DNA from: a bacterium
Lineage (GTDB): Bacteria; Oederibacteriota; JAAXVQ01; JAUVAV01
Assembly: GCA_023139775.1 (NCBI GenBank)
Contig: JAGLMY010000163.1
Location: forward strand, 1 to 39,582
Length of the DNA: 39,582 nucleotides
Reading direction: 5' to 3'
Both the position numbers and the translations under genes were made by a program. How positions within the stretch are numbered: the stretch's first letter is position 1; the number at the start of each line of letters is the position of its first letter. A model generated the notes under the pieces. That model was not told the DNA's origin. It saw nothing but the letters and a program-made list of their open reading frames with translations, and did not search any database. Of this stretch, positions 4,304 to 27,475 are shown piece after piece.

Positions 4304-4777
4304 TTAGCCGAGTGTTTTTTTCAATTTCATCAATTGCATAAAATGACGCCGTTCTTCCTCGATAATATTATCCACAGCGGTTTGCTGCGTGGCTGGAATG
4401 AAATTTTTGATTTCTTTGTAATAATAGATGGAATCCAATTCTTTTTGGATGGCAAAACGGATGGCTGCTAAGGTGTTGGTAGTCCCTGTAAAGTTGACGC
4501 TGTCCGTGTTTTGCGGAAACAAGACATTCTCCACAAACGCGTTGAGATAGTCCATGTATTCTCCCGGATAACTTTCTGCCGGAGTATACTCCTTCAGCTT
4601 GCTTTGCAATTCTTCAAATATTTTTTTGTGGTTTATTTCTTCATTGGCCAAATGCTGAAAAATCTTTTTCGTCTCATCGTTATCAGTAATGGTCATAGCC
4701 TGCCGATAAAAGCGTTCCCCGTTTTCTTCAATCTTTATGGCAATATTGAATATTTCCTGAGCCTGGAAGATATTCAT
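4304..4777 (-). CDS. Ferritin-like diiron protein, rubrerythrin-related, without rubredoxin domain
   Basis: The product has 157 residues and is all-helical, with the paired carboxylate/histidine pattern of a four-helix diiron bundle: EENGERFYRQA (about 17-27), ANEEINHKKIFEEL (about 44-57), a second glutamate-rich half with QKELDSIYYYKEI, and EEERRHFMQL near the C-terminus. No C-terminal CxxC rubredoxin domain is present; a separate rubredoxin gene follows 12 bases downstream and could supply that function. GGAGG precedes the ATG. The family includes peroxide-reducing rubrerythrins and ferritin-like proteins of anaerobes. The reaction is not certain. Confidence 0.82.
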   Translation of the reverse strand: MNIFQAQEIFNIAIKIEENGERFYRQAMTITDNDETKKIFQHLANEEINHKKIFEELQSKLKEYTPAESYPGEYMDYLNAFVENVLFPQNTDSVNFTGTTNTLAAIRFAIQKELDSIYYYKEIKNFIPATQQTAVDNIIEEERRHFMQLMKLKKTLG

Positions 4778-4792
4778 GGACTTGCCTCCTAA

Positions 4793-5308
4793 TTACGCGC
4801 CAACACGATAGGTGGGCGCTGTCTTGGGTACCTTACCTTTAATCACCGTACGGTAATACTCATACGTCAGCGGGATTCCTTCCTTGAGCACTTCACTATA
4901 CACCACCTCGCCCACGAAAATGGCGTGCGTGCCTACATCCATCTCATTAATCACTTTGCACTCAATCACAGCCAAGGCGTGATCGAGTAGTAAGGGGACT
5001 TTGCTTTGGCCCACACGAAAATCAGCCTTGGCGAACTTATCTTCTTTCCGCCCGCTCTGGAAGCCCCAAGCGCCGAAAAAAGAAAACGGCGTCTCCTGTT
5101 CCAGAACGGACATGCCAAAGGTCCGATCCTTTTTAACATACTCGTAGGTTAAATTTTCCTTATTCAAACAGATTGCCAAACGCAGGGGCTCCACCGTAAT
5201 CTGGGTACCCACATTCACAATTTGACCGTTATACTTGTCCTCAACCCGGGCGGTAACTACATACAGCCCATAGGTAAAACAATAGAGCGCTCTTTCATAT
5301 ATATTCAC
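4793..5308 (-). CDS. Flavin reductase-like FMN-binding protein (Hrb/flavoredoxin type)
   Basis: The protein has 171 residues and the split-barrel flavin reductase fold: an N-terminal YERALYCFTYGLYVVTAR strand region, NVGTQITVEPLRLAICLNK, the SVLEQETP helix start, a FGxxSGRKEDKF segment that binds the FMN phosphate in this family, and the GTHAIFVGEVV strand. It resembles the flavin domain of high-molecular-weight rubredoxin (Hrb), which feeds electrons to flavodiiron proteins. Here the rubredoxin is a separate gene in the same operon. The start is GTG (5306-5308) with GAGGAG 6 bases upstream. A related but distinct paralogue lies at 37.4-37.9 kb. Confidence 0.85.
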   Translation of the reverse strand: MNIYERALYCFTYGLYVVTARVEDKYNGQIVNVGTQITVEPLRLAICLNKENLTYEYVKKDRTFGMSVLEQETPFSFFGAWGFQSGRKEDKFAKADFRVGQSKVPLLLDHALAVIECKVINEMDVGTHAIFVGEVVYSEVLKEGIPLTYEYYRTVIKGKVPKTAPTYRVGA

Positions 5309-5328
5309 TGCTCACTCCTCAACCGTAA

Positions 5329-5844
5329 TCATGCGCCTGGAGCTTGGGTTGCATCCACAAAAACACGTTGGCTCAATTCCTTGTCCAGCATATACAGACT
5401 TTCCTTGGACGCCTGAACCATCTTAATTTGGCCGAGAATGGTCATGGCATTGGCCTCTTCTTCCACCTGTTCGGCCACAAACCACTGCAGCATGTTATTG
5501 CTGGCATGGTCTTTTTCAGCCAGCGCCAAATCAACCAAATTATTAATCAGCGAGGTAACCAGCTGTTCGTGTTTAAGCACTTCCTCAAAAACCTGCTGCG
5601 TATCTTTCCATTCTGTGGGCGGCTGTTGAATTGTGGTCAAGATAACTTTGCCGCCGCGTTCCAAAACATATTTATAGATTTTGATTCCATGGGTGGTTTC
5701 CTCTTGATACTGTACATACATCCAATTGGCAAATCCCGGCATATCCTGGGCTGCAAAATACGCGGACATAGACAAATACAAATAAGCGGAATACAACTCA
5801 GCGTTGATCTGTTCATTCAAAGCTTTTTCCATTTTTTCATTCAT
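5329..5844 (-). CDS. Ferritin (non-haem, FtnA-like)
   Basis: Ferritin oxidises Fe(II) and stores iron in a 24-subunit cage. The 171-residue product starts MNEKMEKALNEQINAELYSA and keeps the ferroxidase ligands: E16 in the first helix and the YQEETTHGIKIYKYV stretch with E48, E49 and H52. Further acidic residues (EEVLKHEQ, AEQVEEEANA) lie in the third and fourth helices. GGGAGG precedes the ATG at a good distance. It is the first gene of a five-gene run (ferritin, flavoprotein, ferritin-like, rubredoxin, ptsI) with gaps of 12-73 bases, consistent with one transcript for iron and oxygen stress (inference). Confidence 0.94.
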   Translation of the reverse strand: MNEKMEKALNEQINAELYSAYLYLSMSAYFAAQDMPGFANWMYVQYQEETTHGIKIYKYVLERGGKVILTTIQQPPTEWKDTQQVFEEVLKHEQLVTSLINNLVDLALAEKDHASNNMLQWFVAEQVEEEANAMTILGQIKMVQASKESLYMLDKELSQRVFVDATQAPGA

Positions 5845-6410: not shown

Positions 6411-7139
6411 TTATAAATTGACGTCTTTTTCAAATTTATACCCGGCGCGATAAACGGTTTTAAGCTGCTGCGGTTGATTAGGATCTTTCTCTATTAATTG
6501 GCGTAATTTGACAATATAATTGTCAACTGTACGAGTGGTGGGAAAAGACAATTCATCCGTATAGTTCCATACCTGCTCTAATATTTCTTCCCGGGCTATA
6601 ACTTTTCCCGGGTTTTTAAAAAAGTATTCCAGCAGTTTTTTCTCCTTTTCGGATAGTGCTATTTTTTTATTATCTCGCAGGATTTCGTGTTTTGCAAAAT
6701 CAATAACGCAACTCGGGTTTAATCTGACTTTAACCGGTTCGTTTGATTGCCGGTCCGGCAGTGACCGCCGTAAGATAGCTTGGACCCGGGCCAGCAGCTC
6801 TTTTAAACTGAATGGTTTGCTTACATAATCATCAGCGCCTGATTTAAGCCCCTTAATTTTGTCAGCTTCCTGGGATTTGGCAGTAAGCATAATTATAGGT
6901 ATATAAATTTTATCCGCTCTTAATTGGCTGCATATTTCATAACCGTTTTTATAGGGAAGCATAATATCCAGAATAATCAGATCCGGACCGGGCTCCGATT
7001 TTTGCATATGATATCGTATGCCTTTATCGCCTTGCCGGCCGTCCGGATAAACAACTACTTCATAGCCTTCCTTTTCCAAAGCATATTCTACGCCGGTTGA
7101 AATGGAGAGATCATCCTCCACCACAATAATTTTAGACAT
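6411..7139 (-). CDS. Response regulator, OmpR/PhoB family
   Basis: This 242-residue DNA-binding regulator has an N-terminal receiver domain with the acidic pocket VVEDD (residues 6-10), the phosphoacceptor D58 in LIILDIMLPYKNGYE, and K108 in SKPFSLKELLAR. A C-terminal winged helix (about 140-240) follows, with the FPTTRTVDNYIVKLRQLIE recognition region. The ATG at 7139 has GGAGG upstream and overlaps the kinase stop by 8 bases, so translation is probably coupled to its partner kinase. Another 27 in-frame codons upstream belong to the kinase coding region. It is the last gene of the barrel-TPR-kinase-regulator unit, and its targets may include that unit (inference). Confidence 0.95.
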   Translation of the reverse strand: MSKIIVVEDDLSISTGVEYALEKEGYEVVVYPDGRQGDKGIRYHMQKSEPGPDLIILDIMLPYKNGYEICSQLRADKIYIPIIMLTAKSQEADKIKGLKSGADDYVSKPFSLKELLARVQAILRRSLPDRQSNEPVKVRLNPSCVIDFAKHEILRDNKKIALSEKEKKLLEYFFKNPGKVIAREEILEQVWNYTDELSFPTTRTVDNYIVKLRQLIEKDPNQPQQLKTVYRAGYKFEKDVNL

Positions 7140-9201
7140 CACGGCCTCCGTTTTTGAATCTGCACTTTTTAAAAGTAATTTTAACTCTCGTTCCTTTTTT
7201 CTGCTCGCTCTTAATATCAATCCGGGCTTTATGGTCTTTTAATATTTTTTTAACAATCGCCAATCCCAGTCCAACCCCTTCCCGGGAATATAACCGCTCA
7301 TCACGAATACGGTAATATTTTTCAAAAACTTTTTTAATCTCAATTTTAGACATCCCGATGCCGAAATCAATTATTTCCACCGCAGCATATTTTTTAAAAT
7401 CCAGCAAATGAATGTGGAGCTCTTTTTTAGTTTGAGAATATTTTACCGCGTTTTCCAGCAGATTGGCCCATACTTGCTGGAGGGTATATTGATCCGCCTT
7501 AACCCATATTTTTTCCTCAGGAGCAATATACTGAATTTTAAAATCGTAGTTATTTTTTTGCCTTTGAAAAACCGCTATCGCTTCCGTTACATGTTTATTT
7601 AAATCCAAAGGAGTTAAGGAAAATATAAATTTTCTTTTCCGGTTTTTCGTGAAATCCAGCACCTTTTTTATTAAATCACTTAAGCGTTCGGTTTCTTTTC
7701 TTAATATCCCGACAAATTCCCTGCGCTTATTCGGATCAAGATTATCCTCATCCTCCAGAATTTCAGAATACATTCGAAGGGACGTAAGCGGAGTTTTAAG
7801 CTCATGGGAAATATGCTCTACAAATTCCGATTTCAGGCGGAGCAGCTCAAATTCCCTCAGTAATATTTTAACAGAAAATATAATCGCAAGCAGAACATAA
7901 CCGACAAATATCAGAAATATCACCCTATAAAAGCGGTGTCTTTTTTCCTGTTGGCTGCGGATAGCCGGCAAATTTCCCGGTTCCATCTGAAAATCAAAGG
8001 CTAGTCCTTTATACTGCCAGTTTAATTCTGTTTTCCAATGATTGCCGGACCGGTCTGTTGGATATTTTTTGGCCGGGAAAGACCAGGGAACAGATTTTCC
8101 ATATTGATCTTTTATTGCCAAATAAATATTTTCCTTAGGCGCTATTTTTTCCAAAAGCGGACCAAAGCTCTGATCCAACCAGGCTTTGAAGTCAAGCCGG
8201 CAAATTAAAAATTTTGTGCCATTATAACGGGTAATAACCGTAAGCTGATGCGCCTTTTCAGAAGTAAAGTATAAAAGCTGAGGTTGAATAAGCTGGTTTA
8301 ATTTTTTCAGATAATGTCTCTGGAAATATTTTCGTTTTCTTTCCAGCCGCGCTTTAGTTACTTCCCGGGAGCTTATCTTTTTATAGGCAGTTGCTGTATT
8401 TAAATCATACTGTTTTGCCATTTGATGCAGCCATTGCAATTGTTTTTTGTAAAAACTCGGTTTAAGCGTAATTTTTTCCGACACAATATCCTGATAAAGC
8501 GCCAGCAGATTTTTCTTTAAAGCCAAAAAATTATTCGAACTTTCATATATGAAATGCATCTGGCGGTAGGCCGCAATGGCTATGGGGATGCCGTCCCAAT
8601 TAGGATGCTGATGATATTGCAGCAAAATGAGCTGATAATGATCCACTGCTTTTTGATAATTCCCGGCTTTTAAATAGGAACGGGCAATGCAGTTCAATAA
8701 TCTCGCCCGCAATACCGGTTCCAGTATGTTTATAAATATTTTTTGGTATTCCGCAATCGCGGCAGCGTAATTTTTTTCAATAATTTCTTGGCGTTCGGCT
8801 GCGCGTATAGTGGAGATTTCTTGAGCAAATTTGTCCGGCTCAAAAGGCTCGGCTTGCCAAAAAAGCGAAATCGCGCCCGTAGGATCAACCAACAAGCTCC
8901 TGTCTTTCACCGCAAAAACCTCCATAATATTCTTATGGGCTTTAAAGAAGATATTCAATTGTTTGGAGGGGTTTTGTTCCCAATTCATGTTCTCTAAAAA
9001 CCGTAAATTAGCAGCTAAAAAATTGTCAATCTCGCTCAGCAGCGCTTCCTTGGTTTGCCTGCTGCTTTGTTTTTGTGCTTGCTCAATTTTGCTGAGAAAT
9101 TCGCGGTCCTCTTTTTGCATATATTGCCGGCCCAGTCCGACTAGAAATATAGAAGGGATAAGTAAAAGAAGTATAATCAGAATATAAAGCGGCAATTTCA
9201 T
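7132..9201 (-). CDS. Sensor histidine kinase with TPR-type extracytoplasmic region
   Basis: The product has 689 residues. TM1 is at about 4-25. A large extracytoplasmic region (about 26-425) follows and includes TPR-like helices near residues 130-200 (NCIARSYLKAGNYQKAVDHY). TM2 is at about 426-447. The HisKA dimerisation domain has the phosphoacceptor H466 in EHISHELKTPLTSLRMYSEI. The ATPase domain has the N box NLLENAVKYS and the G boxes DFGIGMSK and GVGLGLAIVKK. It phosphorylates the regulator encoded immediately downstream (overlapping by 8 bases). The TPR segment aligns by eye with the small secreted TPR protein encoded 3 bases upstream, suggesting they share or compete for a ligand (inference). 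HAMP and PAS domains are not visible. Confidence 0.93.
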   Translation of the reverse strand: MKLPLYILIILLLLIPSIFLVGLGRQYMQKEDREFLSKIEQAQKQSSRQTKEALLSEIDNFLAANLRFLENMNWEQNPSKQLNIFFKAHKNIMEVFAVKDRSLLVDPTGAISLFWQAEPFEPDKFAQEISTIRAAERQEIIEKNYAAAIAEYQKIFINILEPVLRARLLNCIARSYLKAGNYQKAVDHYQLILLQYHQHPNWDGIPIAIAAYRQMHFIYESSNNFLALKKNLLALYQDIVSEKITLKPSFYKKQLQWLHQMAKQYDLNTATAYKKISSREVTKARLERKRKYFQRHYLKKLNQLIQPQLLYFTSEKAHQLTVITRYNGTKFLICRLDFKAWLDQSFGPLLEKIAPKENIYLAIKDQYGKSVPWSFPAKKYPTDRSGNHWKTELNWQYKGLAFDFQMEPGNLPAIRSQQEKRHRFYRVIFLIFVGYVLLAIIFSVKILLREFELLRLKSEFVEHISHELKTPLTSLRMYSEILEDEDNLDPNKRREFVGILRKETERLSDLIKKVLDFTKNRKRKFIFSLTPLDLNKHVTEAIAVFQRQKNNYDFKIQYIAPEEKIWVKADQYTLQQVWANLLENAVKYSQTKKELHIHLLDFKKYAAVEIIDFGIGMSKIEIKKVFEKYYRIRDERLYSREGVGLGLAIVKKILKDHKARIDIKSEQKKGTRVKITFKKCRFKNGGRDV

Positions 9202-9204
9202 GTT

Positions 9205-9567
9205 TTACTTTTCCCTTTTTAAATGTTTCAAGGCAAGTTGTGCTTCCCTGACTTTCTGAGTATTTTTCGGATACCAAGTAATAACTAAGCGGTAATAAAG
9301 AACTGCTTCAACCAAACGGTCAAGATTTTCATAACACCGCGCAATACTAATAAGAGTTACGGCGCATATATCCTCATATTGAGAATAATGCGTAAAGATC
9401 ATTTCATAAATTCCAATAGCTTTTTCTAAATCCCCAGCTCCATATTCCTGAAAATTAGCTTCCTGATACCAACCCAGGGCTTCCTGCCGTTTGGGATCAA
9501 GTTCCGCGGCCATTCCGCAGCTGCCGGATAAAAGGAGAAATAATAGTACAGCAATGACATTTTTCAT
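9205..9567 (-). CDS. Small secreted TPR-repeat protein
   Basis: The protein has 120 residues: a signal peptide (MKNVIAVLLFLLLSGSCGMAA) followed by about 95 residues of helical TPR-type sequence with LEKAIGIYEMIFTHYSQY and ISIARCYENLDRLVEAVLYY. A cysteine lies in the signal region, but the residue at -3 is not a good lipobox match, so lipidation is uncertain. Its ATG shares one base with the stop of the barrel gene (TAATG), and the kinase starts 3 bases after its own stop, so all three are probably translationally coupled. By eye it resembles the TPR part of the kinase's extracytoplasmic region. I infer a periplasmic adaptor between the outer-membrane protein and the kinase. Confidence 0.75.
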   Translation of the reverse strand: MKNVIAVLLFLLLSGSCGMAAELDPKRQEALGWYQEANFQEYGAGDLEKAIGIYEMIFTHYSQYEDICAVTLISIARCYENLDRLVEAVLYYRLVITWYPKNTQKVREAQLALKHLKREK

Positions 9568-11504
9568 TATTCCACCTTAATGAAAAATCGCGTAGTATCC
9601 TGCAAATCATTCGTCTCAACCCATTTAATTTCAATGTTCTTAAGGCCCTGTTCTGCAAAATAAGTAAGAATATTATCCAGTCTTTCCTGCTGATACTTTT
9701 TCCAATTAGGCTGGTATAAAGCGGTTATGATTATTTGCAAATCAGCATATTTGTTATGCAAATCGGCGATTTCTTTCAGAGTATTAAAAAGACTCAACTT
9801 GGGCGTGTTTTTGATAAAATCAAAAATCCCTACGCGATATTCCTCTGGCTGGGGCAAAGCTAATTTTGTTACTTTATTGGAGTTTGGTGATTTATATTTG
9901 GGAGTAAGTTTAGTTTCAGGCTTGATTTCAGATTTAATTGTGAGCGGAATGTGAATGTTCGTATAAATCCCCCAATTGGGTCCCATCTCCATATTCTGGC
10001 CCGTGGTTTTGGGTGTATAACGTCCCATAATATCTAAATTATAATGCTCAGCTATTTTTATAGCCATTCCAGCACTAATAGTTGATGAATTAATCCACCT
10101 GGTTGAATTATCGAAATAACTTTTATCATGGGTATAAGCAGACCGCAAAGCAACATAAGGTGTAACCCAGCCTTCAATTCCGACTCCAAAAACATCATTC
10201 ACGTCTTCCAGAAAAATATTAGTTACGATATTAGTCATAATTGATTTTCTATTATATTGAAACGCAAGCTGTATTTTTTTCTTAAAAAACTGAAATCCCA
10301 GACCACTGCCGAATTCTCTGTTTTGGGTTTCGTTTTTACTGTTTGACATTTCATAGTCAGTCTCAGCCTTACTAAAAATATAGTGGGCCCCGAGCAGCAA
10401 ATTGCAATCATAACCTAAAGGGATCATGCCTTTGATCATTGGCATTACACCCCATCCATCCATTTGTGAGTATTTACCTTCGTACTCTTTTACTTGTTTT
10501 GTAATTTCCCGGGATTTCCAATATGCCTGTGTTCCAATCTGGAAAAAGTCTTTGATATTAAAAACACTCTGCGCGGCAAGTAAAATCGTAGCAGGTGTAT
10601 ATGTATAAGTAGTTTTGAACTCCGAAAAAGTGTGTTCGCTTGTAAAATCATCCACTTCATCATCATTGCCCGCGATAAAGATGATGTCATCCGGAAAAGT
10701 ATATTCAGTTCTGAAATCATCCACTTCATCATCATTGCCCGCGGTTACGCCTAACTGTAAAGCTATGTCCTTGCCAATTTTGAGGCCTGATCCAATTTGC
10801 CAATGAAGCAGACTCATATTGGCTTCGCATTCAGTATATGTATCCATATCAGTACTATTAGTAAAAATATACGCAAGTTCTCCGCCTAAGGAAAAAACAT
10901 CCCCTAACCGGATTGCTGTCTTCAAATCGCTATACACGCCAAACGAGGAACCGTTGAAGGAAAAATCGTAACTGTTAGATGAATTATATGGCTTTTCTGG
11001 CGAATAATTATAAATATATTCAAAATACTTTTCCCTATATTTTGATTGGACCTGCACAGGCATGAGATTTATATTTATCGCCCAATTATCGCTTACCCAA
11101 TAATTAAAACCGCTGAATTCACCTTCTGCCGGATATAGTGCAAGAGTTTTGAAATCGTCTTTTTGTTCAAGTATAGTGCTTATGTAGCTGTAGGAACCAG
11201 GCGGCCAAGAATAATATTCAGTATAGTAATCGCGCGTAGTTATTGAAGAAACAGAATTATCATAATATATTCCAAAATTTATCCAGTTCTCTTTGGGCGT
11301 AAAAGCCAGACCAGCGGGGTTTTCCATATTAAAGAGCGATAAGTCTGTGGTCTGGTCTTCCAAAGCTAAAAATGCGCCGCCTAAAGTCATTACCCGCAAA
11401 TTGTAATTATTCGGCCACTCCCGGGCCAGCCCGGGAGTTGGAACTACCCCTGACAACCCTTGAAAAAATAAAACCATTAAAATCCATAAAATATTTTTAT
11501 TCAT
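9567..11504 (-). CDS. Outer-membrane beta-barrel protein with C-terminal OmpA-like tail
   Basis: This 645-residue protein has a signal peptide (about 1-28) followed by RVMTLGGAFLALEDQTTDLSLFNMENPAGLAF. That segment is typical of FadL/PorV-like barrels, where an N-terminal hatch precedes alternating aromatic beta strands. Many amphipathic strands follow (about 60-520). The last 110 residues contain a helix-strand pattern ending in IEIKWVETNDLQDTTRFFIKVE that may be a divergent OmpA-like or periplasmic domain. A 23-residue acidic segment (AGNDDEVDDF) is present twice in tandem around residues 255-290. GGAGGG precedes the ATG. It is the first gene of a coupled unit with a secreted TPR protein and a two-component system. 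Role as sensor, porin or secretion component is unknown. Confidence 0.75.
   Translation of the reverse strand: MNKNILWILMVLFFQGLSGVVPTPGLAREWPNNYNLRVMTLGGAFLALEDQTTDLSLFNMENPAGLAFTPKENWINFGIYYDNSVSSITTRDYYTEYYSWPPGSYSYISTILEQKDDFKTLALYPAEGEFSGFNYWVSDNWAININLMPVQVQSKYREKYFEYIYNYSPEKPYNSSNSYDFSFNGSSFGVYSDLKTAIRLGDVFSLGGELAYIFTNSTDMDTYTECEANMSLLHWQIGSGLKIGKDIALQLGVTAGNDDEVDDFRTEYTFPDDIIFIAGNDDEVDDFTSEHTFSEFKTTYTYTPATILLAAQSVFNIKDFFQIGTQAYWKSREITKQVKEYEGKYSQMDGWGVMPMIKGMIPLGYDCNLLLGAHYIFSKAETDYEMSNSKNETQNREFGSGLGFQFFKKKIQLAFQYNRKSIMTNIVTNIFLEDVNDVFGVGIEGWVTPYVALRSAYTHDKSYFDNSTRWINSSTISAGMAIKIAEHYNLDIMGRYTPKTTGQNMEMGPNWGIYTNIHIPLTIKSEIKPETKLTPKYKSPNSNKVTKLALPQPEEYRVGIFDFIKNTPKLSLFNTLKEIADLHNKYADLQIIITALYQPNWKKYQQERLDNILTYFAEQGLKNIEIKWVETNDLQDTTRFFIKVE
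10645..10743 (-). repeat. In-frame 69-bp tandem duplication within the barrel gene
   Basis: A 30-base core is identical at 10645-10674 and 10714-10743, an offset of exactly 69 bases (23 codons), and flanking bases are also similar. It encodes the repeated acidic motif AGNDDEVDDF followed by xxExTF. The in-frame, near-identical copies point to a recent slipped-strand or recombination event in what is probably a surface loop. Confidence 0.85.
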
Positions 11505-11801
11505 TTGTAAATTCCCTCCTTTATTTTATTAATTGCGTTGGATTAGACGCCTTGCTTGATCTATTCATACCATGCAATTAAAAACCATGTTTCATGGAAA
11601 AGTAAAAATTTAAGGGAGTTATCATGGAAATGTCAGGCTGGAAATGTTTGGTAGGTTTTCAGATGCGAATTTGCTTGTGCAGGACTTTTGCGGCCAAAAC
11701 CGGGGTCTTCTGCGAAGGCGGATAAATCGCCTCCCTCTAGGAGTGTGAGCATTTAGTTGCTTTTTAAAATTTCTGAACAGTTGAACAGTGGAAAGTAGAC
11801 C
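11505..11801. other. Gene-free stretch upstream of the barrel gene
   Basis: No gene is seen. The short palindrome CCATG-TTT-CATGG (11585-11597) lies about 80 bases upstream of the barrel start and could be a regulator site. A GGCG/CGCC hairpin occurs near 11720-11735. No convincing -35/-10 pair was found. Confidence 0.35.
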
Positions 11802-11851: not shown

Positions 11852-11879
11852 GAGACTGAGCAACTAATTGCTCAGTCTC
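11852..11879 (-). terminator. Hairpin abutting the nrdJ stop codon
   Basis: Perfect 12-bp arms (11852-11863 and 11868-11879; GAGACTGAGCAA and its complement) with a 4-base loop start at the base after the nrdJ stop. There is no U-run after it on the minus strand, so it may stabilise the 3' end or end transcription with help from the following hairpin. Confidence 0.5.
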
Positions 11880-14800
11880 TTAGGCGCACTTGGAAAAGCC
11901 GCACACGCGGCATACCACACAACCGCTCTCATGCTCCACGGTTCCACCGCACTCCGGACATGCGCCAATCAGATGATCCAGAGCATTCAAGCCCGCTGAC
12001 ATCTTCTTCCGGCCAGGGGTTTTAGCATTGCTCTGCCATTTGATAATATTTTCCATGGCCAGTCCCACCGCATCCGGACAAGAGAGCACCATGCCTCCCG
12101 CACTCCAGGCCGGACTGGAACAGCGCAAACCGCGCAGGTTTTTAATAATCGCTTCCGGATTCACATCCGCACGCAAGGCCAACGAAATCAGACGGGCAAT
12201 GGCCTCGGATTGGGCTGCCGCGCATCCTCCTGATTTCCCCATCTGTGTAAATACTTCAAACAAGCCTTTTTCATCATGATTCATAGTTATATAATAATTA
12301 CCGCACCCGGTTTTTATTTTTTCCGTAATCCCGGAAACCACTTCCGGCCGGTCCCGGGGTTCCAGTTTGTGTCCCGGCCCTGCTGCGACGCCTGCTCCTG
12401 CGGACGTGGACAACACCTGACCCTCACGACTACCATCCCGGTAAATGGTAACACCCTTGCATTGAGCGCGATAAGCTTCCAGAAACACTTCTTTTACATC
12501 TGCTTCAGTAGCCGACTGAGCAAAATTAACCGTCTTGGAAACTGCGTTATCCGTATGTTTTTGAAATACCGCCTGCATCCGGATATGCCATAAAGGTTCC
12601 ATATCATGCGCAGTCACAAAGATTTTACGCATTTCCGGCGGCACTGCCTCCATCCCTTGCACGCTTCCTTTTTTGGCAATCTCCTGCATCAGCTCCTCTG
12701 AGGCAAAATCATGCAAAATCGCTTTTTCCTCAAAGATCGGATTTACTTCCACCAATTGATCATTGTCCATCACATTACGAACATACGAGACCGCGAACAA
12801 GGGTTCAATGCCGGAACTGGTATTGGCAATAATACTGATTGTCCCGGTTGGCGCGATGGTGGTTGTGGTCGCGTTGCGCTGCGGCGGTAGTTTTTGTTTG
12901 GCCCAACGACTCCGGGCAAATTCCGGAAATGGTCCGCGGTCCACAGCCAATTCCCGCGACGCCTGTCTGCTTTCCTCAGCAATGCACTGCATGATGCTTT
13001 CGGCCGTGGCCAACGCTCGCTCAGAATTATAGGGAATTCCTAATTTCAGCAACAAGTCGGCAAAACCCATCACACCCAGACCGATTTTCCGGTTTTTCTT
13101 CACCACGGCTTCGATCTGGGGTAAAGGAAACTTTGAGGCATCAATCACATTGTCCAGGAAATGAACCGCACTTTTAACAATGCGACGCAGGCGGGCATAG
13201 TCAATTACTTTTGCTCCGTCTTTGTCGGTCACCAATACGGAAAAATTGATGGAACCCAAATTGCATGCCTCATACGGCAACAACGGCTGTTCTCCGCACT
13301 GTGCCGTAACAAAACCATTACTTACAACAGAATGGGTTTCAGGCTCTGTGGTACAATAAACATCCTCTCTGCCGGCAGGAACTATCTCTTTAACCTGGTC
13401 AACAAAATACTCTTTATTGGAATTACGCTTTTTAGAGGCAATCCACTCTTCGGCCTTCTTCTGTTTGGCAGGAAGCATGAAGCCTATATTTTCGATAAAT
13501 TTATCCCGATTGGCGCCATCTATGATCAATTCGTATTGGGCGGCATAGTGATACAATTTCGGTTGTCTCTTGGAATCCGGCATGAATTTGACGCCCGGTT
13601 TTCGCCGCAGTTTCAACTTTGCCGCCAGGCCTTCATTTAAAAGCATAATTTGGATTTGCTGCAATAATTTTTTCGAACTATTGGCCAAACGTATTGAGCA
13701 GCATCCTTTACTGAGACTTGCGTTGACTGTACCGTCGGCTGTAAAAAGCGCTTGTAAAAATCCCAAAACTGCTTCTCTCGGCGCAGTCCAAAGGGATTTT
13801 GGCACTTCTTTTTCCAAGCCGGAGCATAGTGTAATTCCTAAGGAATTTAAAAAATAATAGAGCACGGATTTGTAGTACAAAGTGTATGTGCCGTTACGTT
13901 CCACGGAAGTACCGTTTAATCCCAACCAGCTTTTTATTAATGAGCGAAACGCAGGCGCCAACTCCTTCTTTTCTTCGTTTCCAAACATTAATCCCACAGT
14001 ATAATTTGGAATATTGCGCCCTGACGGAATTTCCCGGCTCACCCAACCATCGCCAATAATCCAGCCTAATAATTGCCCTAAATCACGCGACCACGTTTCG
14101 GGCCGCTTGCACTCCCCGCGTTGTAATCTGGCTTTCAATTTGTTGTCAGGAAAAAATGGCGGCAAGAGGTTGTCCTTCCCCCATGCTCCTCTGCCAGACT
14201 GCATTAAAATTTCGTCCCCGGGTTTAAGCTCCTTCAATTTCATACGACCGCGAGGTGTTATGAACTTATGATCCGCCGTGGTCGTCACCTCATAACCATC
14301 CTTGGTTTCCAACCGGAATACCGGCCAATTGGCTCTGGTTTTAAAAACCGGGACTGCCGGACGAAAAGTTATACCAGTCACCGGGCGGGTTCTAACCAAC
14401 ATTTGACCTTCAAATATCTTTTTATCATAGCCGGCTACCCGATTGTCTGTCGCAACCTTTATTTTTAGTTGTTCAATATATAATTCTTCAAAGGTGCTCA
14501 GTCCCTGGTCCGTTGCCAACCGCATGGATCCTGTAAAACACGGATTTGTGCTCTCGATCCCGCCTAATTGAGGAGTGGGATTATATTTGTTGATTTGATC
14601 AATAAATACAATTCCCGGCTCCCCGGTTTCCCAGGCGTTTTTCACAATTTGCGCAAAAACCAACCCGGCTGACAAGGTTCCGGTTTTTTGCTGTGTGCGG
14701 GGATGAATTAAATCATACTCGGTCTCTGCTTCTACCGCCTGCATGAACGCATCGGTCAAGGCCACACTAATATTGAAATTGGTTAATTCCCTGGTGTCCT

Positions 14801-15389
14801 GTTTGCAATGAATAAAATCCATAATATCCGGATGGTCCACCCGCAAGACAGCCATGTTGGCGCCCCGACGGGTCCCGCCCTGTTTGACCGCTTCCGTCGC
14901 TGCGTTAAACACTTTCATAAATGAGACCGGTCCGCTGGCGCAACCGTTGGTGGTTCGCACAATATCATTTTTAGGACGTATTCTGGAAAAACTAAAACCC
15001 GTACCCCCGCCACTCTTGTGAATCAAGGCCGCGTTTTTAACACTCTCAAAAATGGATTCCATGGAATCTTCCACCGGCAACACAAAACAGGCGGACAATT
15101 GCTGCATATCCTTACCCGCGTTCATAAGGGTTGGTGAATTTGGTATGAACTCCAAATTAATCATCAACCGGTAAAATTCTTCCGCCACTAACGTGGTATC
15201 ACTCTCCGGGGAGTACAGTTTATCTTGCGCGGCAATATTTTCAGCTACCCGGCGAAACATCATTTCCGGAGTTTCTGAAAGATTATTCCGCGCATCTCTA
15301 CTGAGATACCGTCTTTCCAATACCCGAATGGCATTCTTGGATAACCGAAGCATTTTTCCGGTTGTGGTATCCACGGGACGTCTCTCCAT
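11880..15389 (-). CDS. nrdJ: Adenosylcobalamin-dependent ribonucleotide reductase (class II) precursor with intein
   Basis: Class II reductase makes deoxyribonucleotides without oxygen, using B12 to generate a thiyl radical. The translated precursor is 1169 residues; removing the intein (residues 284-697) leaves 755, normal for NrdJ. Host motifs include NSPTLMNAG, the redox cysteine in LSACFVLPVEDSM (C101), the loop HKSGGGTGFSFSRIRP, and GGTRRGANMAVL. The active-site motif N-P-C-G-E is split by the intein so that C698 follows it. PTGTISIIANTSSGIEPLF follows. The C-terminus is a cysteine-rich tail with CPECGG and CRVCGFSKC, which may receive electrons from a thioredoxin-like donor. No N-terminal ATP-cone is seen. 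The gene is third in a run with rubrerythrin and desulfoferrodoxin (20-base gap). Confidence 0.95.
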   Translation of the reverse strand: MERRPVDTTTGKMLRLSKNAIRVLERRYLSRDARNNLSETPEMMFRRVAENIAAQDKLYSPESDTTLVAEEFYRLMINLEFIPNSPTLMNAGKDMQQLSACFVLPVEDSMESIFESVKNAALIHKSGGGTGFSFSRIRPKNDIVRTTNGCASGPVSFMKVFNAATEAVKQGGTRRGANMAVLRVDHPDIMDFIHCKQDTRELTNFNISVALTDAFMQAVEAETEYDLIHPRTQQKTGTLSAGLVFAQIVKNAWETGEPGIVFIDQINKYNPTPQLGGIESTNPCFTGSMRLATDQGLSTFEELYIEQLKIKVATDNRVAGYDKKIFEGQMLVRTRPVTGITFRPAVPVFKTRANWPVFRLETKDGYEVTTTADHKFITPRGRMKLKELKPGDEILMQSGRGAWGKDNLLPPFFPDNKLKARLQRGECKRPETWSRDLGQLLGWIIGDGWVSREIPSGRNIPNYTVGLMFGNEEKKELAPAFRSLIKSWLGLNGTSVERNGTYTLYYKSVLYYFLNSLGITLCSGLEKEVPKSLWTAPREAVLGFLQALFTADGTVNASLSKGCCSIRLANSSKKLLQQIQIMLLNEGLAAKLKLRRKPGVKFMPDSKRQPKLYHYAAQYELIIDGANRDKFIENIGFMLPAKQKKAEEWIASKKRNSNKEYFVDQVKEIVPAGREDVYCTTEPETHSVVSNGFVTAQCGEQPLLPYEACNLGSINFSVLVTDKDGAKVIDYARLRRIVKSAVHFLDNVIDASKFPLPQIEAVVKKNRKIGLGVMGFADLLLKLGIPYNSERALATAESIMQCIAEESRQASRELAVDRGPFPEFARSRWAKQKLPPQRNATTTTIAPTGTISIIANTSSGIEPLFAVSYVRNVMDNDQLVEVNPIFEEKAILHDFASEELMQEIAKKGSVQGMEAVPPEMRKIFVTAHDMEPLWHIRMQAVFQKHTDNAVSKTVNFAQSATEADVKEVFLEAYRAQCKGVTIYRDGSREGQVLSTSAGAGVAAGPGHKLEPRDRPEVVSGITEKIKTGCGNYYITMNHDEKGLFEVFTQMGKSGGCAAAQSEAIARLISLALRADVNPEAIIKNLRGLRCSSPAWSAGGMVLSCPDAVGLAMENIIKWQSNAKTPGRKKMSAGLNALDHLIGACPECGGTVEHESGCVVCRVCGFSKCA
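13299..14540 (-). other. Intein with LAGLIDADG homing endonuclease in NrdJ
   Basis: The in-frame insert runs from C284 (CFTGSMRLATDQGLS, block A) to Q697 (HSVVSNGFVTAQ, block G region) of the precursor, 414 residues. Block B has TTADHKFITPRGRMKLKELKPGD with the TxxH signature. Two dodecapeptide motifs, LGWIIGDGWVS (about 441-451) and LGFLQALFTADGTVN (about 542-556), keep the acidic metal ligands, so the endonuclease may be active. The penultimate position is Ala instead of His, and the last residue is Gln instead of the usual Asn; Gln-ending inteins are rare, but a viral reductase example is known to splice. The +1 residue is the host cysteine C698. Confidence 0.93.
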
Positions 15390-15409: not shown

Positions 15410-15790
15410 CTAGGCTCTTGCTTCCCACAAGCCATGTAAATTGCAATGCTCCCTGACAGTGAGCTTTTCAGCCTTGACCTGAAAAACCGCCTTCGGCGGT
15501 TCACCAGGTTTCAAAAACTGAAGGTAACTCTTCTTATTGGCAATTAATTCAATCCATTCAATATAATGTTTTTCCTCCATGGGGTGTTCAACGCTACCCA
15601 CGGTTATGGTAACCACGTCGCCCTGTTTTTCAATAACCGGGACATGCTTTTCCTGAGCCGCGTCCGTGATACCTGCTTTCACTTTTTTCATTGGCTGTCC
15701 ACAGCATGAGGGCAAAACTCCAGCGTGCAGTACTTCCACGATCCCGCCGCACTCCTCACATCTGTATATTTCCAAAATTTTGGTTCCCAT
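15410..15790 (-). CDS. dfx: Desulfoferrodoxin (superoxide reductase, two-centre type)
   Basis: The 126-residue protein reduces superoxide to peroxide in the cytoplasm of anaerobes. Centre I, the desulforedoxin-like Fe(Cys)4 site, is C11, C14, C29 and C30. Centre II, the catalytic Fe(His)4Cys site, is H49 in EKHVPV, H69 and H75 in [15 protein letters not shown], and C116/H119 in EHCNLHGLW. The conserved E47-K48 pair next to H49 is present. All ligands are intact. GGAG precedes the ATG. It lies 27 bases after the rubrerythrin stop and 20 bases before nrdJ. Electrons would come from the rubredoxin encoded at 4.2 kb (inference). Confidence 0.97.
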
Positions 15791-15817
15791 AATTATCTCC
15801 TTTTTTATAGTTGTATA

Positions 15818-16393
15818 TCAATAATTTTGCACTTTTAACTCAAAATGTGCCTGCGGATGAGCACAGGCCGGACAGCTTTGCGGGGCTTCCTCGCCTTCAT
15901 GCACATAACCGCAGTTGCGGCAAACCCAGCTTACTTTTGTCGATTTTTTAAACACTTGGTTTTTTTTGATATTCGCTGCTAAAGCACTGTACTGATTCTC
16001 GTGATTTTTCTCTGCCACAGATACGGCCTCAAATACCTTGGCTATGTCCTCAAAACCCTCAGCCCGGGCAATTTGGGCAAACTCAGGGTACATTTTAGTG
16101 TTCTCGTAACGCTCACCGGCTGCGGCAGCCTCTAAATTGTCCACAGTATCCCCGATCACGCCGGCTGGAAACGCTCCGATAATTTCCACCTCGCCGCCTT
16201 CCAGGAACTTGAAGAAGCGTTTGGCGTGTTCCTTTTCCTGGTTGGCGGTTTTTTCAAAAATTGCGGAAATCTGAACATAGCCCTCTTTCCCGGCCTTGGC
16301 CGCAAAATAGGTGTAACGGTTTCTGGCTTGAGACTCTCCGGCAAAAGAGGTCAATAAGTTTTTTTCGGTTTTGGTTCCTTTAAGTTTTGGCAT
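15818..16393 (-). CDS. rbr: Rubrerythrin
   Basis: Rubrerythrin is a peroxidase reduced by rubredoxin or NADH-dependent reductases. The 191-residue product has the diiron four-helix domain (E20 in FAGESQARNRYTYF, E53/H56 in NQEKEHAKRFF, a second EGFEDIAKVFEAVSVAEKNHE half) and a C-terminal rubredoxin domain (about 155-185) with WVCRNCGYVHEG and CPACAHPQAHFE cysteine pairs. The length is typical. GGAGGAG lies before the ATG. It is the first gene of rbr-dfx-nrdJ, so together the products remove superoxide and peroxide while the third makes DNA precursors. A promoter presumably lies in the 220 bases upstream, but no clear -35/-10 pair or PerR box was found. Confidence 0.97.
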   Translation of the reverse strand: MPKLKGTKTEKNLLTSFAGESQARNRYTYFAAKAGKEGYVQISAIFEKTANQEKEHAKRFFKFLEGGEVEIIGAFPAGVIGDTVDNLEAAAAGERYENTKMYPEFAQIARAEGFEDIAKVFEAVSVAEKNHENQYSALAANIKKNQVFKKSTKVSWVCRNCGYVHEGEEAPQSCPACAHPQAHFELKVQNY

Positions 16394-25066: not shown

Positions 25067-25228
25067 TTAAAGGCTGTTCCTTAGTTTCTGCCGGATGATC
25101 TTGGTTCGTTTGGTTGAACACTTATTTATAAATTTATTCATTTGATGCAACCATTCAAGCTTTTGTTTAGGCGGTATTTTCATGAATCTTAAAAGACGTT
25201 GTTCTTCTGTTTCCCATTTGAAAATCAT
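25067..25228 (-). CDS. Small partner protein of the nucleotidyltransferase (53 aa)
   Basis: The ATG (25226-25228) overlaps the nucleotidyltransferase stop in ATGA, so translation is coupled. The 53-residue product (MIFKWETEEQRLLRFMKI, then PPKQKLEWLHQMNKFINKC) is helical and basic, with a W-x-x-E/L-E-W-L-x-x-M-N pattern. I recall small downstream partners of AbiEii/DUF-type nucleotidyltransferases with a similar helix, but no named family can be assigned. The arrangement suggests a two-gene module, possibly toxin-antitoxin; which partner would be toxic is unknown. Confidence 0.65.
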   Translation of the reverse strand: MIFKWETEEQRLLRFMKIPPKQKLEWLHQMNKFINKCSTKRTKIIRQKLRNSL

Positions 25229-25722
25229 CGTTTTTTTCTTAACTTATTAATTTTTTTCAAACCCTTCACATCCAACTGATCAACTATACGCCCGGTTTTT
25301 TCTTTCATTTTAATCAGATGCCTCAAGGAGATTACCGGCAGAATATAATCATCGACTTTGATATGCACGGCGCTTTTTTGAGCTTTATGAAAAGACACCG
25401 GCGATTCAATAATGATATCCACTTCCTTCCAGCCGTCATCCTTATAAAAATTAAAAGCCTTCATATGTTTGTTTTTAATCCAATCTTCCCTTGTTGCTTT
25501 ATCGGCAATTTTCATCGGATCAACGGGCTGCTTAACCCGATAACCACGCCGTTTCAGGATTTTGACTATCTTTCTGAGATTTTCATCACTCATTTCAACC
25601 AAAATGTCCAAGTCCGCCGTGCTTCTCAGCAAACCGAGAAGATTGGCCGCCACACCCCCGACAAGAACAAATTTAACCTTCTCCTTATGAAACACCCGTA
25701 ATATTTCTTCGTAAAAAATCAT
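25225..25722 (-). CDS. Nucleotidyltransferase-fold protein (AbiEii/MNT-like)
   Basis: The protein has 165 residues. The nucleotidyltransferase core is visible as VLVGGVAANLLGLLRSTADL and DILVEMSDENLRK: the GG loop and the D-x-D metal ligands (DLD) in their usual spacing. A third acidic strand (KEVDIIIESP) supplies the last ligand. The C-terminal basic helix (GLKKINKLRKKR) may bind nucleic acid or the small partner. Members of this group include toxin kinases/transferases of abortive-infection systems as well as housekeeping transferases. No obvious Shine-Dalgarno is seen; the ATG at 25722 is the first available. Confidence 0.8.
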   Translation of the reverse strand: MIFYEEILRVFHKEKVKFVLVGGVAANLLGLLRSTADLDILVEMSDENLRKIVKILKRRGYRVKQPVDPMKIADKATREDWIKNKHMKAFNFYKDDGWKEVDIIIESPVSFHKAQKSAVHIKVDDYILPVISLRHLIKMKEKTGRIVDQLDVKGLKKINKLRKKR

Positions 25723-27046: not shown

Positions 27047-27475
27047 TTAGAATAATAGTTTCGGCGGCTGAGCTTCTTCAGGTATCCTCTTAATAATAGC
27101 CTTATATATCTCTTTACATAAATCCATCGCATTTTCAGTTTCCGTAAGCCCCGGTTCTTGGAAATTGCCGGGATAACGATATTTCCATGCGTATTGGGTT
27201 AATGAGGCAGCCCGGCTGAGCAGCGATTCCAAAGATGTATCCAGGGAAACGCATTTTTTGCCAATTTCTACTAAGTCATGAGTTTTGCGAAATGAAAGAT
27301 CATGCCATACTAAAAAAGCTTTCAAGCATTTTTCAACAGCCTGCTGACAGTGAAACAGGGCATCTTCAAGCAAGGGAGGAGAGTCTTTACAATCGATAGA
27401 CGCGGCCCTTATATCTTTATGCGCTCTTATAAGCCAGGCTTGCGTATCTTCGATACGCACCGGATCAGGCGGCAT
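27047..27475 (-). CDS. HEPN-domain protein (partner of MNT nucleotidyltransferase)
   Basis: This 142-residue all-helical protein has the HEPN-family signatures: ALFHCQQAVEKCLKAFLVWH (about 39-58), FRKTHDLVEIGKKC (about 62-75) and a late YAWKYRYPG. It overlaps the nucleotidyltransferase gene by 11 bases, forming an MNT-HEPN module. In characterised modules the HEPN protein is an RNase toxin that the MNT partner neutralises, often by AMPylation. The classical R-x4-6-H catalytic motif is not evident here, since only R-K-T-H occurs, so this branch may act differently. Confidence 0.87.
   Translation of the reverse strand: MPPDPVRIEDTQAWLIRAHKDIRAASIDCKDSPPLLEDALFHCQQAVEKCLKAFLVWHDLSFRKTHDLVEIGKKCVSLDTSLESLLSRAASLTQYAWKYRYPGNFQEPGLTETENAMDLCKEIYKAIIKRIPEEAQPPKLLF

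Follow-up and report, generated by a model that had tools for sequence, protein, structure and literature searches.

How events at the cell surface or outer membrane reach kinases of the inner membrane has been described for few systems. The surface protein PorA, for instance, acts upstream of the PorY kinase through an unknown mediator (PMC7712824). Here we ask whether a compact operon, in which an outer-membrane barrel and a secreted TPR protein are encoded next to a two-component system, represents such a route, and whether its composition recurs elsewhere. The operon lies in a stretch of 39,582 nucleotides, hereafter the window, which is an entire contig of a 3.59 Mb genome (362 contigs, 90.6% complete) from an uncultured bacterium of candidate phylum FCPU426.

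Organization of the operon and its control region

An earlier note, made from the sequence alone, reported four tightly joined minus-strand genes coding for a barrel, a secreted TPR protein, a kinase with extracytoplasmic TPR helices and a regulator. The open reading frame coordinates agree with the order and joins it gave, and the product assignments are borne out by Pfam searches, hydropathy, AlphaFold and Foldseek results and a count of amphipathic segments. The features of the locus are as follows.

9567..11504, minus strand: outer-membrane beta-barrel, 645 aa; signal peptide, barrel at about 27-530, soluble C-terminal tail at about 531-645
9205..9567, minus strand: small secreted protein of 120 aa with TPR helices after its signal peptide
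7132..9201, minus strand: sensor histidine kinase, 689 aa; two TM helices, TPR array, HisKA, HATPase_c
6411..7139, minus strand: OmpR/PhoB-type response regulator, 242 aa, assigned with Pfam
11595..11647, plus strand: three direct copies of TGGAAA(A/T)GT, candidate regulator-binding site, 5′ of the operon
11852..11879, no strand: perfect 12-nt inverted repeat, just past the ribonucleotide reductase stop

The barrel stop and TPR start overlap by 1 nt (TAATG), suggesting translational coupling of the two genes; a gap of 3 nt separates the TPR gene from the kinase gene, and placing the regulator start at ATG 7139, from which its receiver domain extends, rather than at TTG 7220, where the automated call begins, gives an 8-nt overlap with the kinase gene. 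On its 5′ side the operon is bordered by the ribonucleotide reductase gene and the inverted repeat, which likely marks the boundary between them, and on its 3′ side by a 0.57 kb gap followed by ferritin, flavin reductase and rubrerythrin genes. The ribonucleotide reductase large subunit (11880-15389, minus strand) contains an intein with Intein_splicing and LAGLIDADG_3 domains. Genes for anaerobe oxidative stress, namely two rubrerythrins, flavin reductase, ferritin and desulfoferrodoxin, flank the operon (4304-5844 and 15410-16393).

The three TGGAAA(A/T)GT copies are situated 91-143 bp 5′ of the barrel start. No second site in the 3.59 Mb genome has paired copies, and shuffles of the region reach three copies in 11 of 1000 cases, a figure to be read in the light of the repeats having been spotted post hoc. 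We regard the triplet as a candidate operator, a putative binding site for the regulator, through which the operon may be autoregulated. Among sister cassettes, L040 carries no copy, and L041 has two, both away from its kinase.

The barrel has a single, weak Pfam match (OMP_b-brl, 0.0034), and its residues 27-530 contain 18 alternating-hydrophobic segments, a number reached by none of 500 shuffles (9.0 ± 2.3). Since the C-terminal 115 residues lack this pattern, we consider them a separate soluble tail. In an alignment with seven paralogues (22-27% identity), which also supports the barrel assignment, every paralogue stops at the tail start; the window barrel has gained a periplasmic tail. An LSxxRAxxVxxYL-like spacing in the tail is visible by eye only. 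Membership of the barrel in the PorV/PorQ or FadL families was considered and rejected, because no curated PorV or FadL model matches and a profile comparison aligns only 40 columns with a probability of 50%; an OmpA-like peptidoglycan-binding tail found no support, with no OmpA-family match in Pfam or PDB.

Kinase and regulator belong to an OmpR/PhoB-type two-component system. The kinase combines HisKA (2.5e-18) and HATPase_c (1.2e-22) domains with the phospho-acceptor motif SHELKTP and a weak TPR match at residues 166-193, and the regulator combines Response_reg (1.3e-26) and Trans_reg_C (1e-22). Hydropathy gives the kinase two membrane helices, at about residues 3-28 and 422-448, and residues ~30-420 are therefore taken to be extracytoplasmic. 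With a TPR array between two transmembrane helices, the protein has the layout of a periplasmic-TPR sensor. In its AlphaFold model (mean pLDDT 64 overall), residues 125-264 are predicted mostly at pLDDT 70-91 and form about 3.5 helical hairpins, which Foldseek matches to solved TPR proteins. In order, the model presents a long helix, two strands (92-105), the TPR hairpins, a long helix, three strands (308-337), a helix and the second transmembrane helix, an arrangement consistent with the insertion of TPRs into a PAS/Cache-like fold, of which fold comparison confirmed the TPR part only.

This model bears on a first alternative, in which barrel and TPR protein never contact the kinase: the kinase would use its own TPR and possible PAS/Cache-like regions to detect a small ligand in the periplasm, as has been proposed for FimS or VbrK, and the two exported proteins would be regulated outputs, such as a transporter and its accessory. 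The helix-flanked strands at 308-337 would suit a PAS/Cache fold, operons joining a kinase to its targets are common, and VbrK unites TPR-like and PAS-like periplasmic domains (PMC8534201). Against it, Foldseek matched the TPR part of the sensor and, among the matches listed, returned only TPR-type structures and no Cache domain. We hold this account to be a serious contender, somewhat better than one chance in three.

Recurrence of the kinase and its TPR partner

The collection searched covers about 45 genomes of phylum FCPU426, as draft assemblies in which several loci end at contig edges. The nine loci of the bacterial family that encode a full-length relative of the sensor are spread over all of its six genomes; beyond the family, full-length relatives occur in a single genome from a different phylum (G099), and the matches in G221 and G264 are partial. 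Four of the five records with sensor relatives in the named collection belong to candidate division FCPU426, the fifth being labelled Firestonebacteria. A family profile that excluded the window sequence aligns with the window sensor over its full length (E 2.8e-17, model positions 7-432) and with none of five control kinases from the window's genome. A provisional tree sets the window kinase, on a long branch, as sister to the remaining eight (support 87/93), and its regulator is 41-45% identical to those of related cassettes.

The earlier note would have taken regular absence of the barrel and TPR genes beside homologues of the kinase as a refutation. Such absence is seen for the separate large barrel and not for the TPR gene. 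A separate large barrel adjoins the kinase at one of nine family loci, the window, and at none of the other eight. The TPR gene does so at six of the seven evaluable loci among the nine in six genomes (window, L040, L041, L046, L047 and L049), two loci being cut by contig ends; it is divergent from the kinase at L049, 81 nt away, and absent at L045. The neighbourhood search that the note had proposed thus returned the exact four-gene set from the window only, together with a related kinase-regulator-TPR::OMP set at five loci. We reject the exact set as a widespread arrangement, given that relatives of the barrel never adjoin such a kinase and occur in unrelated neighbourhoods.

At the five other loci with an adjoining gene, the TPR protein continues into a C-terminal domain of ~125 residues, so that a link to the outer membrane returns in a different form. 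Four of these fusions were aligned and share a linker rich in Lys and Pro and a Tyr-Phe end; the fifth, L049, matches the domain in sequence and has the same Tyr-Phe end. In L041, the one member analysed in this way, the domain contains eight alternating-hydrophobic segments (0 of 500 shuffles). The same domain is found as free proteins of 151-163 aa with signal peptides, most ending in YF, in other FCPU426 families and in G005. That it is made alone behind a signal peptide elsewhere supports its identification as a small outer-membrane barrel. A weak Pfam match was obtained for one of four sequences, a profile search of the domain against PDB returned nothing, and AlphaFold predicts the TPR part of a TPR::OMP protein confidently and its barrel part unreliably (pLDDT < 50). 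Free barrels of this size in FCPU426 are encoded at L107-L111, L122, L137 and L138; in the last two the free barrel adjoins a larger protein with a similar FxGFGS start and KxGQxxGxIP stretch.

The window TPR protein stops after the TPR part and has no fused barrel domain. Its Pfam matches to TPR are weak (best 4e-4) and its signal peptide was assigned by inspection, but a TPR::OMP profile built without it matches it at E 3e-18, and the TPR region of a homologue folds confidently in AlphaFold. That profile matches five places in the window's genome, one adjoining each of its three TPR-sensor kinases, so that all three have a TPR neighbour; by a rough estimate, chance adjacency amounts to about 1% or less per kinase. 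Short TPR proteins matching the TPR part of the cassette, lacking obvious signal peptides and located away from such kinases, were seen at L131 (3105-3443) and L132 (1684-2013).

These counts bear on a second alternative, that barrel and TPR genes are chance neighbours functionally unrelated to the kinase pair. Its ground is the single adjacency of the large barrel in nine loci and the unrelated settings of the barrel's relatives; yet the window genes overlap or nearly touch, and TPR with OMP recurs beside homologous kinases. We judge it very improbable. Persistence of this particular partner also counts against co-regulation alone, which leaves unexplained why an outer-membrane-anchored TPR protein, and not any output gene, stays by the TPR-sensor kinase throughout the family.

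A third account sees in the operon an envelope-assembly monitor, with the TPR protein as a BamD- or CpoB-like assembly or scaffold factor that serves the barrel and, in sister cassettes, T9SS components, while the kinase signals assembly defects in the manner of Cpx- or Rcs-type stress systems. It draws on the overlap of barrel and TPR genes and on the best NCBIfam leads, BamD (1.5e-4) and YbgF (5.8e-4) for the window TPR protein and PorW/SprE (9e-5) for a sister, all far under cut-off. Such leads amount to generic TPR-level similarity, and neither BamD nor CpoB resembles the fused OMP domain; this account seems to us unlikely, if well ahead of chance neighbourhood.

Outside the family, a TPR-PD40 protein follows the kinase-regulator pair of G099; to judge from this one genome, such kinases may have been paired with a secreted TPR protein before the family arose. 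The G221 relative has a PepSY-like neighbour and no TPR, and the G264 relative a DUF2092 neighbour with a TPR-like start seen by eye only.

Known systems and type IX secretion genes

The earlier note knew of no named system with this composition. For the whole set this agrees with the literature searched, but the kinase type is already known from FimS and VbrK (PMC11053733; PMC8534201). FimS/FimR of Porphyromonas gingivalis resembles the window in having a kinase with a TPR periplasmic sensor and a cognate regulator, and point mutations in the periplasmic TPR of FimS alter signalling (PMC11053733). The NCBIfam FimS model matches the core of the window kinase only (residues 419-672), without homology in the sensor, and the passages considered describe no gene for an outer-membrane-anchored TPR partner. 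In VbrK/VbrR of Vibrio parahaemolyticus, the sensor has the TPR-like plus PAS-like layout that the window model suggests; there is no detectable sequence relation between the two sensors, as a PDB profile search with that of the window gave designed and other TPR proteins only, and the portion of PMC8534201 at hand describes neither a barrel nor a TPR partner.

PorX/PorY with PorA is a T9SS-tied two-component system whose kinase is influenced by a surface protein (PMC7712824). It acts through the sigma factor SigP, and the locus tags of PorX and PorY are distant (PGN_1019, PGN_2001; PMC4800418). In the window, by contrast, the genes for the kinase and its OmpR-type regulator overlap and no T9SS gene is present at the locus.

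A further comparison is with the FCPU426 cassette itself (L040, L041, L046, L047, L049 and, in part, L134 and L136), whose kinase, regulator and TPR protein are homologous to those of the window. The window differs in its unfused TPR protein, its separate large tailed barrel, its reversed order, with barrel and TPR genes first, and in having neither a sorting-tail protein nor a PorV downstream. Two further genes come after TPR::OMP at L041, L134 and L136, the first for a protein whose C-terminus is FlgD-Ig or Por_Secre_tail, the second for a PorV/PorQ-family barrel. PorV_fam (NF033709) exceeds its curated cut-off at all three, and the sorting tail TIGR04183 scores 30.5 bits at L134 (cut-off 23) and more weakly at the other two; kinase and regulator are still visible at L041 only, L134 and L136 being cut by the contig end on that side. 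Large secreted proteins, cut by contig ends, follow the regulator or TPR gene at L040, L045 and L135. A 2158-aa SprA-like protein of the window's genome falls under the curated cut-off, which is exceeded in G003 and G006. SprA-like type IX translocons in FCPU426 (L139-L141, e.g. G000 contig C150) lie outside Bacteroidota.

No description of a recurrent pairing between a TPR-sensor kinase and an outer-membrane-anchored TPR protein was found in the literature searched, and the pairing looks new. The cassette, with T9SS cargo and PorV adjoining, is a candidate design for such a mediator as that expected between PorA and PorY, a question that the relay outlined below, if true, would answer (PMC7712824).

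A proposed relay from the outer membrane

Since the TPR::OMP-kinase-regulator set recurs and the exact four-gene set does not, we read the window operon as a divergent, split form of the FCPU426 two-component cassette, in which the state of the outer membrane would be relayed to the kinase by TPR-TPR contact. We prefer this reading tentatively, granting it a little less than an even chance, with co-regulation without contact close behind. In its favour are the recurrent TPR neighbour of homologous kinases, the fused outer-membrane domain, the adjoining T9SS-type genes and the FimS and PorA precedents; against it are the solitary occurrence of the window's gene set, the lack of a barrel domain in its TPR protein and of sorting-tail and PorV genes at its locus, the weak Pfam and AlphaFold results for the small barrel domain, and the chaperone or scaffold roles that TPR proteins can have. 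Three proteins would form the core of the cassette: a kinase with extracytoplasmic TPRs, its OmpR-type regulator and a secreted TPR protein that is retained at the outer membrane, either fused to its own small barrel, as in the standard form, or free and coupled to a large tailed barrel, as in the window. The barrel domain, or the large barrel through its tail, would position the small TPR protein beneath the outer membrane, where it could touch the periplasmic TPR array of the kinase. A change in the barrel, be it assembly, ligand or traffic of exported surface proteins, would alter this contact and with it kinase activity, and the regulator would then adjust expression of the operon and, in standard cassettes, also of the surface protein and PorV-like barrel. 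The direct physical route from outer membrane to DNA put forward in the earlier note would depend on such contacts, the structure predictions having been made on single chains.

A more specific version of the preferred relay, a dedicated trans-envelope module in which the anchored TPR protein docks on the TPR array of the kinase and reports the state of the outer membrane or of surface-protein export to the OmpR-type regulator, with the window as a rewired large-barrel form, is doubtful, and we place it below the relay in general. The module can be tested piece by piece.

Elsewhere in the window, a HEPN-domain protein (27047-27475, minus strand) lies ~1.3 kb from a nucleotidyltransferase-like protein (25225-25722, minus strand), possibly a HEPN-MNT-type pair.
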